Virus record (IMG/VR): IMGVR_UViG_3300047667_000742 | Coordinates: 1-39,599 of that record | Reading direction: 5' to 3' (one strand) | Origin: a virus | DNA: 39,599 nt | In this document: one piece after another, positions 2,951 through 38,567 of the stretch | How the letters are laid out: every line of letters begins with the position of its first letter | How positions within the stretch are numbered: the stretch's first letter is position 1 | Translations under genes and position numbers: made by a program | Notes under the pieces: model-generated | Databases searched by the model: none | Seen by the model: the letters and a program-made list of their open reading frames with translations, nothing else | What the model was told of the DNA's origin: nothing

Positions 2951-2991
2951 AGCATACCTATATCTAATTGGTTTGACAATCACTTTTTGTC
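2951..2991 (-). promoter_or_regulatory. Promoter module in front of the portal gene
   Basis: Palindrome GACAATCACTTTTTGTC (plus strand, 2975-2991) has perfect GACAA/TTGTC arms. On the minus strand TTGTCA is followed after 17 bases by TATGCT (2951-2956). The predicted transcript start, seven bases further on, coincides with the ATG at 2943. The palindrome overlaps the last codon and stop of the terminase gene. Confidence 0.65.
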
Positions 2992-4522
2992 AATGAGCGC
3001 CTGTCGTTGTTCCAGAACTTCCGGTTTGCCCAACAGAGCGGATAAAATAGCGAACCTCGTCAGCGACGTGGTCTTCTGCATCAGTGTTTATGTCGTCTGG
3101 GTTCTTTTCATCACGAGGGAGCACTGGTAAAGTCTCAATAAAAGCTGTGCAGTTAGTAAAAACGAATAAAGCTGGCTTCTCCCGAGGGAAAATAGCGATA
3201 ACTTCACCTTTTTCATCTTTCTTCACGTTGGGTCCAGCGTTTCTGATACGCTGTCTCAGCTGAGACCAACCTGTAACACGAGATCCAGGACGTTTATCGG
3301 CTGCGTTCCACATAATTCCAGGATAAATGTTCCCATCATCCAATCTTACTTTGGCTTTCATGTCCGTGGCGATACAATTTCCGTTTTCAGCCGCAAATAT
3401 CTGCGAATCAGCAACACCTGCTTTGACGCGACACCAAGTTGTTCCTCTTTCTCTCCAACCACATTCCATTTCTTTCTTAACGATACCTTCGGAGATCTCT
3501 GATGCCAGAATATTAAGCCCTTCGTTCGGACGGTTGTCGTGGCATCCATACCATTCTCGAATACGAAATACATCTCCCCGAATGGTGCTTCGCCAATTTC
3601 CATCCCGTAGCTGTACGTCTTCTCCATTGCTGATTGCCCACCAGCCCACAGAGAAAGGCTTGCTCGCACCCCAGTCAAAGCTCCTAGTGATCTTCCAGTT
3701 ATATGGAATATCAAACGGTAAGACAACATTGTACTTAGGATCCCATACATCGTCAAACATTCCTCCAGACACGATATCCCATGAACCATCTAACCAAGCC
3801 TTCTTCTGGGCTTCGTTATCAGCCGATGCAGCAATCTTCTGTTTGTATTCTGGATCTGCTTCAAGTAGTATGAGGTTCTCATCAATGTGTGATTTTATGC
3901 TGAGACGTGGAGGTTCTTTCTCACCATCTTCATCCATAATGTCACGACGAACTATCATGTTTAGGCTCTGCGGTTTGAAACGGTTCTTTACCCAATTATG
4001 ACCAGGACCCGAGGGGTTCGTGGTTGCCCGACACATGCGTGGCATACCCTTCACAGAGGAACGGCAGGTAGACATCATTTTCTTGTAGCCTTTGGCGTTA
4101 GGCCAGTTACAGAGTTCTTCCCAGCCAATCCATGGATATTCGTGACCGTGATAGTTATCATAGTCATTTTCTTTTGCGAATTGTCGCAGAAGAAGCTGCT
4201 CACCAGTGGGCCAAGTCCACGTATGTTCGGAGTGGTTGAATTTCGCAGTAGGCCAAATCTGCGGTATCCACTTTTTTGTCTTCGAGATAACGTCGGTCAA
4301 TTGCTTGTAGGTCTGACGAAACAGAATTCCTTTCCACCCAGCACCATGTCCTTTACCAACGTGCATACAATAAGACATGAGGAGAGAATCAGTTTTCCCA
4401 CCTCCACGTGTCCCCTCAAACAATACCTCAAAGACAGGGGTTGAAGACAAGAACGCTTCTTGCGATCCAGGCATAGGTCTCCAGACTACATTCTTTGGAT
4501 ATGATTTCGTTTCAGTTTGCAT
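2990..4522 (-). CDS. terL: Terminase large subunit
   Basis: A 510-residue packaging motor. An ATPase domain lies at the N-terminus: Walker A GTRGGGKTDS at about residues 37-46, a Walker B-like WIGWEEL with catalytic acid, and the coupling motif TTNPSGPGHNW. The C-terminal RNase H-like nuclease has acidic residues in SFDWGASKPF (about 282), VADSQIF and EDHVADEVRYF. The length is normal. It cuts concatemers and pumps DNA through the portal encoded just downstream. The start at 4522 has AAGGAAAG upstream. The small subunit is not adjacent but about 8 kb upstream at 12437-13093. Confidence 0.93.
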   Translation of the reverse strand: MQTETKSYPKNVVWRPMPGSQEAFLSSTPVFEVLFEGTRGGGKTDSLLMSYCMHVGKGHGAGWKGILFRQTYKQLTDVISKTKKWIPQIWPTAKFNHSEHTWTWPTGEQLLLRQFAKENDYDNYHGHEYPWIGWEELCNWPNAKGYKKMMSTCRSSVKGMPRMCRATTNPSGPGHNWVKNRFKPQSLNMIVRRDIMDEDGEKEPPRLSIKSHIDENLILLEADPEYKQKIAASADNEAQKKAWLDGSWDIVSGGMFDDVWDPKYNVVLPFDIPYNWKITRSFDWGASKPFSVGWWAISNGEDVQLRDGNWRSTIRGDVFRIREWYGCHDNRPNEGLNILASEISEGIVKKEMECGWRERGTTWCRVKAGVADSQIFAAENGNCIATDMKAKVRLDDGNIYPGIMWNAADKRPGSRVTGWSQLRQRIRNAGPNVKKDEKGEVIAIFPREKPALFVFTNCTAFIETLPVLPRDEKNPDDINTDAEDHVADEVRYFIRSVGQTGSSGTTTGAH

Positions 4523-24072: not shown

Positions 24073-24228
24073 CTACTCTTCGTCGGTTGGTGTGAACATG
24101 CCCTCTAGGTAGTGATCAGGGGCAATGGTGTATCCAAGTTGGATGAAAGAATCTGCGGCCCACGCCCGCAAAAGGTTTAGAAAGTGCGAATCTGCGACCC
24201 ACGCCCGCAAAAGGTTTAGAAAGTGCAT
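24073..24228 (-). CDS. 51-residue protein with an in-frame duplication
   Basis: ATG 24228 is seven bases after AAAGGA, and a strong promoter module lies at 24255-24295. The protein begins M then HFLNLLRAWVADS followed by HFLNLLRAWAADS, two 13-residue copies encoded by a 39-base tandem repeat, then SFIQLGYTIAPDHYLEG. It ends at TAG 24073. The repeat looks like an amphipathic helix. Unknown function, likely real given its promoter, ribosome site and exact fit before the next gene. Confidence 0.6.
   Translation of the reverse strand: MHFLNLLRAWVADSHFLNLLRAWAADSFIQLGYTIAPDHYLEGMFTPTDEE
24149..24226. repeat. 39-base tandem duplication
   Basis: 24149-24187 and 24188-24226 are identical except for one G/A difference. 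The unit length is a multiple of three, so the frame of the 51-residue gene is kept. Confidence 0.9.
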
Positions 24229-24552: not shown

Positions 24553-24593
24553 ATAGTAACTCGGGAATTGGCAAAAGACAAGTGCTATTTATC
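24553..24593 (-). promoter_or_regulatory. Promoter module for the gene at 24291-24527
   Basis: GACAAGTGCTATTTATC at 24577-24593; on the minus strand TTGTCT, 17 bases, TACTAT. Confidence 0.65.
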
Positions 24594-24955
24594 GCAAAGC
24601 GGCGGGGCCGACCCAACTACCTATGGATCGACCCCTATTGCTTTGATTAAAAATCAAGTGCTCATTCAAGAGCAGCACCTATGACTTTCTGACCACTGAG
24701 GTTCCGTCAATCTTACCAAATGCGCTCTACCACTGAGCTACCCGCCAGCAGTCCAACGAAAGGGTGTTGGATGGCGGGGCTGGATTCGAACCAACGACTT
24801 CATTGTTTAAGAAACCTCTTGTCTCCAGTCACTTTGTTTCTCACATTGAGGGGCATAAGTCTCTCAAATATGAGTCACGGGAATTGATTTCCTCCTTAGA
24901 GTTTTCCACCCGCATAGTTCAGTCTCAGTCTCAGTCTATCCCCTATGGGATGAGT
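24594..24955 (-). ncRNA. Structured non-coding RNA locus, possibly an intron-like RNA around a permuted tRNA
   Basis: No gene fits these 362 bases. On the minus strand a tRNA-like core is flanked on both sides by sequence that can fold. GTGCTGCTC pairs with its partner at 24658-24678, and TTGATT/AATCAA sits at 24643-24657. GAGGTT (from 24813-24818) pairs with AACCTC (from 24698-24703) across the core. The upstream flank carries GCGGGTGGAAAACTC (24899-24913), AATTCCCGTGACTC (24872-24885), a CTCA/TGAG hairpin (24863-24874) and GAGAGACTTATG (24854-24865). That order and wording resemble the P, Q and R core elements of a group I intron. A permuted intron-exon arrangement is a hypothesis. Confidence 0.35.
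24719..24805 (-). tRNA. Circularly permuted tRNA-like domain (3' half precedes 5' half)
   Basis: On the minus strand the 3' half comes first. It has variable AAGTC (24796-24800), T-stem GTTGG/CCAGC around TTCGAAT (24779-24795), acceptor CCCGCCA (24772-24778), then T and an encoded CCA (24768-24771). After 20 bases the 5' half follows: acceptor TGGCGGG (24741-24747), TA, D-stem GCTC/GAGC around AGTGGTA, G, then CATT (24719-24722), which pairs with AATG (24801-24804). All seven acceptor pairs form. The joint folds as TCCAAC/GTTGGA. Beyond CATT/AATG no normal anticodon loop is seen, so amino acid identity is unknown and the anticodon arm may be replaced or interrupted. Confidence 0.55.
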
Positions 24956-25699
24956 TTAGCCTTGGATATATCCGAAGATTTCCTTAGCAATGCTTAGATC
25001 TTTGACGTCAACAGTGTTCGCTCGTTGGCGAGCCTTCTTGACAGCCGAGATCATTTTGTCACACCGAAGCATCATAGCCGATTTCTCATGCGGCGTGATC
25101 ATGCTCGAAGTGTGCGTTGTTTCAATACGAGCAACGGAAACGTCTTCGTTCCATTTCTCCACTTGGGCTGGGTGCTCTTTCGTTGGCTCCACCAGGATTC
25201 GTGACTTAAGAGACTTTTCAGTCTTCATTGACACAGTGGCTTCCGAACGATAGGTTCCTTCACCAAGATTGGCGTCTGGTGTCCATTTTATAGACATTTC
25301 CAGAGTTGGAATGTTAAGGATCATTTCCCGAACAGCTTTGAGGCGGCTCTCCATACCCAAAAGGAAGGTCGCTGGGACATCTTTGAGGATGATCGCACCA
25401 TCCACAACGAGGTCTGCTCGAGCACGACCATTGGCTTCTTCAAGTTGCAACAGAGCATCATAGTGGCGACCCACGCTTTTGAAAGCGTGATCAAGCTTGT
25501 CGGCGACTGTGGTCACCATCTGCTTGTTTTCTACAGTGTTTTCACCTTCGCGGCTGCTTTCAAAGAAATTCACTGTTTTAGACTGACCACGAAAATGGTC
25601 AGGTTTTTTCGCAAACACAGTACTAGTCTCAGTGGTCACAGCTTGGGCTGCGTTGGTGGTGTCAGCCATTACTGCCAACAACTCATGAAGTTTCGCCAT
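24956..25699 (-). CDS. DUF7873-like phage protein
   Basis: 247 residues. MAKLHELLAVMADTT at the start, then FAKKPDHFRGQSKTV, DVPATFLLGMESRLKAVREM, KWTPDANLGEGTYRSEATVS, EHPAQVEKWNEDVSVARIET and VKKARQRAN form the ordered pattern I associate with DUF7873, a family found in phages and actinobacterial or proteobacterial prophages. The function is unknown. GGAGATAGTAATA precedes the ATG, with the promoter at 25736-25776. The structured RNA lies directly downstream and is probably co-transcribed. Confidence 0.75.
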   Translation of the reverse strand: MAKLHELLAVMADTTNAAQAVTTETSTVFAKKPDHFRGQSKTVNFFESSREGENTVENKQMVTTVADKLDHAFKSVGRHYDALLQLEEANGRARADLVVDGAIILKDVPATFLLGMESRLKAVREMILNIPTLEMSIKWTPDANLGEGTYRSEATVSMKTEKSLKSRILVEPTKEHPAQVEKWNEDVSVARIETTHTSSMITPHEKSAMMLRCDKMISAVKKARQRANTVDVKDLSIAKEIFGYIQG

Positions 25700-38513: not shown

Positions 38514-38554
38514 ACCATAGCGGCAGAGGGCGCAAAAGACAAGTGCTAGTTGTC
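38514..38554 (-). promoter_or_regulatory. Promoter module for the glycosyltransferase-ThyA-HD operon
   Basis: GACAAGTGCTAGTTGTC at 38538-38554; on the minus strand TTGTCT, 17 bases, TATGGT. Confidence 0.65.
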
Positions 38555-38567
38555 GCCCTCTTCCAGA

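Follow-up and report, generated by a model that had tools for sequence, protein, structure and literature searches.

The nearest described RNA to the one considered here is YrlA (RF02553), the Y RNA of the bacterial Ro protein Rsr, which mimics transfer RNA (tRNA); thus, a permuted order of tRNA-like domains has a known bacterial precedent. RNAs of this type are reportedly widespread tRNA mimics, phages included. As for their roles, a complex of Rsr and Y RNA is tethered to PNPase, and the tRNA-like domain of YrlA has been suggested to inhibit an anticodon nuclease competitively (PMC7790460). The locus studied here lies in a viral stretch of 39,599 nucleotides (nt), positions 1 to 39,599 of the IMG/VR record IMGVR_UViG_3300047667_000742, referred to as the window. 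At positions 24719-24805 of its minus strand, which is the coding strand of the neighbouring genes, there is a tRNA-like element with the 3' half placed before the 5' half. It belongs, as a module, to a larger structured non-coding RNA, whose length is put at about 250-350 nt; the RNA is conserved and covarying, combines permuted tRNA-like domains with a hexamer module, and is locked to the gene for the protein family DUF7873 in both phages and bacteria. Its identification as a DUF7873-linked tRNA-mimic RNA can hardly be doubted.

Along the minus strand, the 3' half consists of the T-arm GUUGG-UUCGAAU-CCAGC (24779..24795), recognised from sequence and covariation, followed directly by the acceptor 3' strand CCCGCCA (24772..24778) and then by an encoded discriminator and CCA (UCCA, 24768..24771). 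A junction segment of 20 nt (24748..24767) pairs with UCCA to form the hairpin UCCAAC/GUUGGA and leads to the 5' half: the acceptor 5' strand UGGCGGG (24741..24747, from homolog comparison and sequence), which makes seven Watson-Crick pairs out of seven with the 3' strand, and a canonical D-arm, GCUC-AGUGGUA-GAGC (24724..24738, sequence and covariation), with U8-A9 just before it. CAUU (24719..24722, sequence and homologs) and AAUG (24801..24804) form an equivalent of the anticodon stem, with four pairs in the window. All the parts listed in a preliminary description of this sequence were therefore located within 24719-24805, namely the seven acceptor pairs (CCCGCCA/TGGCGGG), the TCCA at 24771-24768, the T- and D-stems, the four CATT/AATG pairs and the TCCAAC/GTTGGA helix of the junction; its remark that no 7-base anticodon loop appears was also borne out. 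Where that loop would be expected, the element is closed by a Y-like stem, P2, formed by GAGGUUUC (24811..24818) and GGAACCUC (24698..24705), a covarying helix at a fixed position in homologs that is also present in the fold of the window. Next to it, a conserved 3' internal-loop segment, GGUAAGAUUGAC (24706..24717), is present in homologs and can be compared with AAAACUUGUCG of YrlA in the Rfam alignment.

An unconstrained RNA fold of 24830-24695 has the permuted T/acceptor/D architecture as its minimum. ARAGORN finds neither a tRNA nor a transfer-messenger RNA (tmRNA) in the window in its native order; given a sequence with the two halves put back together through a generic 7-nt loop, the program accepts 61 of 61 homologs as tRNA, versus 20% for mismatched halves. 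Rejoining the halves of the window does not restore an anticodon stem-loop, since only four stem pairs and no 7-nt loop are obtained. The window has no Rfam match at gathering thresholds; a permissive search gives YrlA as the sole strong match, over its full length and with the same strand and extent (40.8 bits, E 1.6e-7). Just 3' of the element, window positions 24641-24680 (minus strand) hold a degenerate tRNA-Lys-like stretch, with a GCTC/GAGC hairpin and an anticodon-like arm with the loop TTTTTAA, at which ARAGORN calls no tRNA; the corresponding position downstream of the element in locus L010 has the loop CTTTTAA.

Comparison of homologs shows strong covariation of the core. Among 61 nonredundant phage units, the seven acceptor pairs are all kept in 60, despite 55 distinct acceptor sequences; since the search itself required the acceptor, T and D stems, their pairing fractions arise partly by selection, which the measured background rate covers. 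Pairs 27-30 of the anticodon stem, which were no search criterion, are kept in 53-60 of the 61 units, and the P2 helix occupies a constant position (16.2 versus 12.8 for mispaired controls). Indeed, RNAalifold applied to 42 mostly chromosomal sequences recovers two permuted units and the P2 stem unprompted, with two-sided changes at 41 of 52 pairs. The P2 stem in place of the anticodon loop covaries in phages and bacteria, and no homolog group restores a conserved anticodon loop. Covariation, on which the preliminary description had made its reading depend, thus argues for a real structure; of the "permuted tRNA gene" proposed there, the permutation stands, while the tRNA gene is not supported, given the covarying P2 stem, the lack of a conserved anticodon loop in homologs and the position of the element as a module of a DUF7873-tied RNA. 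Loci L060 and L105 hold second tandem permuted units with a Leu-type D-arm followed by an apparently complete anticodon arm; permuted tRNA-like RNAs with an anticodon may therefore exist.

The DUF7873 gene (PF25283, 247 amino acids, Pfam E 2e-71) lies directly upstream of the RNA (24956..25699, minus strand) and encodes its proposed protein partner. The permuted motif was searched for with a script demanding four parts in that order (T-arm, acceptor strand, complementary acceptor strand, D-arm). Its occurrence beside DUF7873 greatly exceeds chance: viral loci have 79 motifs in 46 kilobases (kb) downstream of DUF7873 versus 2 in 802 kb elsewhere, and bacterial genomes have 124 in 40 kb versus none in 967 kb elsewhere; no motif was found antisense, and none in 3480 shuffled 500-mers. 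By this script the element is found 3' of DUF7873 in 81 of 94 viral/phage loci. The scan of bacterial genomes gave at least 518 DUF7873 relatives; among the best 80 loci, which were those examined, the element is present at 73, mostly with two units in tandem. Of the viral/phage loci without a script match that were inspected, most have the element with a long junction insert or a variant T-loop, or stop at a contig edge; over viral/phage and chromosomal loci together, at least five of those without a match have such insert or T-loop variants. Many of the best 80 loci are on long chromosomal contigs, one being a complete Streptomyces chromosome, and no protein other than DUF7873 was found to be shared among the 80.

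In the phage collection, 73 records contain DUF7873, the hosts being Rhizobium, Vibrio, Klebsiella, Serratia, Gordonia, Rhodococcus, Arthrobacter and cyanobacteria, while chromosomes carrying both DUF7873 and the permuted RNA belong to Streptomyces, Actinomadura, Nostoc and Planctomycetes. The gene is present in 32 of 61 sampled genomes from the genus of a Streptomyces isolate and in 7 of 117 genomes from the phylum of a Nostoc. An ordinary tRNA gene begins within 150 nt of the element in 24 of the 81 loci, nearly always 49-69 nt past the D-arm, so that RNase P cleavage of that tRNA could set the 3' end of the RNA. Deinobacterium chartae is the sole control genome with TROVE, the Ro domain, and also the sole one with DUF7873. 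In the Klebsiella phage vB_KpM_FBKp24, an annotated tRNA-Sup(TTA) overlaps the second permuted unit (L037:4018-4097) and was probably called in error; another phage contig that encodes DUF7873 (L082:5505-5895) also has a strong canonical tmRNA (114 bits).

The conserved core of the RNA, defined by conservation and covariation across loci, extends over 24698..24944 of the minus strand and joins a 5' hexamer module to the tRNA-mimic module. The former is closed by a stem, P1, made of AGGGG (24940..24944) and CCCCT (24849..24853), whose pairing is kept though its sequence differs, as found by a helix search over homologs. Inside P1, three GACUGA hexamers (24919..24936) form strand A of a repeat array, identified from the sequence and from lag-6 periodicity in homologs; a variable apical hairpin, GCGGG/CCCGU, follows (24877..24913, from sequence, fold and comparison with chromosomal homologs), and then strand B, GACUCAUAUUUGAGAGACUUAUG (24854..24876), placed by alignment, its hexamer register being clear in chromosomal homologs. 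Lag-6 identity in the 5' module reaches a z of 10.5 in viral homologs and of 22.7 and 18.6 in chromosomal ones, and the repeats show no lag-3 excess in either group. A tag-like reading frame 3' of the D-arm in some actinophages turned out to be the hexamer strand, with a period of 6 and not 3. In chromosomal homologs a first permuted tRNA-like unit lies inside the P1-closed module, where the window has a plain hairpin; thus, the window element corresponds to the second unit of these homologs. The RNA has no entry in Rfam 15, and 16 bacterial loci gave no Rfam match at the gathering threshold.

Structural predictions are available for the protein. The AlphaFold2 model of the window DUF7873 has a mean confidence (predicted local distance difference test, pLDDT) of 88 and agrees with a model for a distant chromosomal set (pLDDT 88-89 for the two); the modelled fold combines long helices with a long beta-hairpin, and its C-terminal helix is conserved. 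Chains of the Cas7-type CRISPR backbone top the Foldseek lists of both models, with weak values (E about 0.005, template modelling score 0.11-0.15), and are not among the VIA-align matches of either one. The top VIA-align matches are TolC-like helical arrangements (Z up to 6.9, root-mean-square deviation over 12 A), and no fold comparison gave a match above chance level. Weak YicC-like matches at the C-terminus were seen in 2 of 17 members, PHROGs has no match for the family, and a search of the open literature found no paper on it. Cas7 steps along its RNA in units of 6 nt; the Foldseek ranking is no evidence of homology, although, given the 6-nt step, it may serve as a lead.

The best explanation of these data, and one that we consider reasonably probable, is that the element is the tRNA-mimic module of a structured RNA forming a two-part system with DUF7873. 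This system is best read as a new ribonucleoprotein family with a build like that of Ro and its Y RNA, in which the hexamer module would bind DUF7873 and the tRNA-mimic module would act as effector; the particle would probably imitate tRNA rather than be the source of a working one. A mechanism can be sketched tentatively, with rather less confidence than the system itself. The DUF7873 gene and the RNA may be co-expressed, or the RNA may have its own promoter. DUF7873 protomers would bind the P1-enclosed hexamer module (UNANNN register; GACUGA in the window), one for each 6 nt, as the 6-nt periodicity and the exclusive linkage suggest. P2 would then present the permuted acceptor/T/D elbow, whose secondary structure is seen in covariation and whose three-dimensional fold, like the upper half of a tRNA, is suggested by the kept T-loop, D-loop GG and U8. 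By analogy with YrlA-class Y RNAs and Ro, the mimic may recruit, or compete for, tRNA-recognising enzymes; since the phage mimic encodes CCA, it could in addition display a 3' end like that of tRNA, or yield one on cleavage. The likeliest use for a phage would be to keep host enzymes that process or cleave tRNA engaged during infection. Some observations weigh against this picture: the folding energy of 24830-24695 is by itself ordinary (z -1.5), strand B in the window (GACUCAUAUUUGAGAGACUUAUG) has no clean hexamer register, and no relative of DUF7873 has a solved structure, nor does any library give it a confident structural match, so that its binding to RNA finds no support in the fold. A bolder version, which we regard as improbable, would make DUF7873 the backbone of an unknown ribonucleoprotein class that polymerises on a hexanucleotide RNA ladder, 6 nt per protomer as in the filaments of CRISPR Cas7, and exposes one or two tRNA mimics that are permuted, nicked and end in CCA; the chromosomal form would serve in sensing or controlling tRNA metabolism, and phage versions would subvert or neutralise it.

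A possible refinement of the two-part system, rather than an opposing view, concerns the encoded CCA. RNase P together with a 3' endonuclease, or trimming, might cut out the loop that joins CCA to the 5' acceptor strand. The product would be a tRNA-like RNA with a nick and a free CCA end, comparable to two-piece permuted tmRNA; it might be aminoacylated, or be bound by enzymes that recognise CCA. CCA directly follows the 7-bp acceptor in 56 of the 61 phage units, despite varied acceptors and discriminators, and it is far rarer both in Ro-linked phage YrlAs (4 of 14, hand-counted with one ambiguous; p 2.7e-6) and in chromosomal second units (11 of 50). The length of the junction, from 2 to 60 nt in scanned homologs and more in a few, would also fit a discarded spacer. 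However, CCA in the window is paired inside the junction hairpin, and chromosomal homologs have closed junction loops of 6-8 nt. Moreover, the discriminator (T24 G16 A13 C8 among the 61 phage units) and pair 3:70 (G-C or C-G in 50 of 61) vary, so that no single aminoacyl identity is kept and the G3-U70 of tRNA-Ala is missing. The presence of CCA suggests a 3' end that is recognised or matured in tRNA fashion, or it may reflect the habit of phage tRNA genes of encoding CCA; processing into two pieces is rather unlikely.

The other explanations fare worse. Considering the YrlA match and the permuted topology shared with phage YrlAs beside Ro genes, the RNA could be a YrlA-type Y RNA proper, with Ro coming from the host or encoded in a portion of the phage that has not been sequenced. 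However, the gathering threshold of YrlA is 69 bits, and the window (40.8 bits) and the homologous loci (26-42 bits) score under it; furthermore, no TROVE gene was found in the window record, which may be a fragment, in ten relatives of up to 100 kb, including those of 62-68 kb, or in RHph_Y1_11 and TM16, two complete Rhizobium phages that have the element, and only one of 35 further DUF7873 viral contigs has it. Rhizobium phage RHph_Y65 has a Ro gene as well as a window-type element, but its Ro-linked RNAs lie in an array of their own, marked by a recurring GUUGCGA...CG motif; the window-type element, which lacks this motif, is about 5 kb away, beside a homolog of the DUF7873 gene at window 24956-25699. 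A Y RNA proper is therefore quite improbable. In the same phage, several Ro-type Y RNAs lie between the TROVE gene and a tRNA gene (L003:4900-5830), one of which (about L003:5289-5410) has an apparently unpermuted tRNA-like core inside its Y stem. Less credible still is a genuine permuted tRNA gene, with a transcript circularised and matured to a decoding tRNA: the full acceptor, T-arm, D-arm and CCA, the acceptance of rejoined halves by ARAGORN and the anticodon-like arms of a few tandem second units (L060, L105) would agree with it, but there is no anticodon loop, the closing P2 stem covaries, acceptor identity varies freely among relatives, and both the linkage to DUF7873 and the hexamer module would be left unexplained. 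A permuted group I intron circularising a tRNA was also considered and discarded, since Rfam gives no group I match and the sequences on either side belong to the P1 and P2 modules. Finally, a decayed remnant of two tRNA genes, which the degenerate tRNA-Lys-like sequence just 3' of the element might recall, is refuted by compensatory changes across many phage and bacterial lineages and can practically be dismissed.

Other features of the window were observed. Between genes, 24150-24227 holds a direct repeat whose two copies, each about 39 nt long, are near-identical (GAATCTGCGRCCCACGCCCGCAAAAGGTTTAGAAAGTGC); a 25-nt sequence at 24571-24595 recurs at 38532-38556, 14 kb apart, with 92% identity, and is perhaps a phage promoter. 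The large terminase subunit (2990-4522, minus strand) is nearest to those of 55-59 kb siphoviruses of Pseudomonas and Janthinobacterium, so that the window probably covers much of a phage genome of some 60 kb.

If the proposed system is real, permuted tRNA-mimic RNAs have a second protein family as partner, one without detectable relation to Ro. The system is widespread, from the genus Streptomyces to phages of Vibrio, Klebsiella, Rhizobium, Gordonia and cyanobacteria. Being two-part, stand-alone and present in genetically tractable Streptomyces, for which a literature search found no paper on a permuted tRNA-like RNA, it is directly testable in its function, and it bears on why bacteria and phages repeatedly make tRNA mimics.

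Compared with known RNAs, the DUF7873-linked RNA shares with two-piece permuted tmRNA (RF01849-RF01851, RF04321) the 3' half before the 5' half, CCA at the junction and a long stem replacing the anticodon arm; differently from it, it has a D-stem, lacks G3-U70 and has no recognised tag frame. The tmRNA models proposed as a check also gave a negative result, since neither ARAGORN nor Rfam makes a tmRNA call in the window, the permuted family RF04321 has no match at the homologous RNAs, and inspection by eye revealed no tag frame. Circularly permuted tRNA genes, known from algae and archaea (PMC3978253, PMC3218864) and mentioned in the preliminary description, have the same order of halves and a rejoined core that scores as tRNA, but the RNA described here has no anticodon loop, keeps its terminal stem instead of having it spliced out, and occurs in bacteria and phages. 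GOLLD and ROOL (PMC12286853) are likewise large structured phage or prophage RNAs of unknown function, often near tRNA genes; they are unlike this RNA in sequence and structure, Rfam gives no match to either, and the DUF7873-linked RNA is tied to one protein gene and has tRNA-mimic domains. The nearest described RNA is instead YrlA, with Ro60-Rsr: in both cases, phages included, a single RNA with paired termini carries a T-arm, an acceptor hairpin and a D-arm in permuted order that mimic tRNA, and this layout, with its terminal stem, is found here by full-length alignment, fold and covariation. Conversely, the partner gene is DUF7873 and not TROVE, hexamer repeats replace the Ro motif, the acceptor has 7 bp, CCA is encoded in phages, and two tRNA-like units are often present. 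Thus, by the features tested, the window RNA is not a YrlA, a tmRNA or a permuted tRNA, while its topology and likely its logic are those of a Y RNA.
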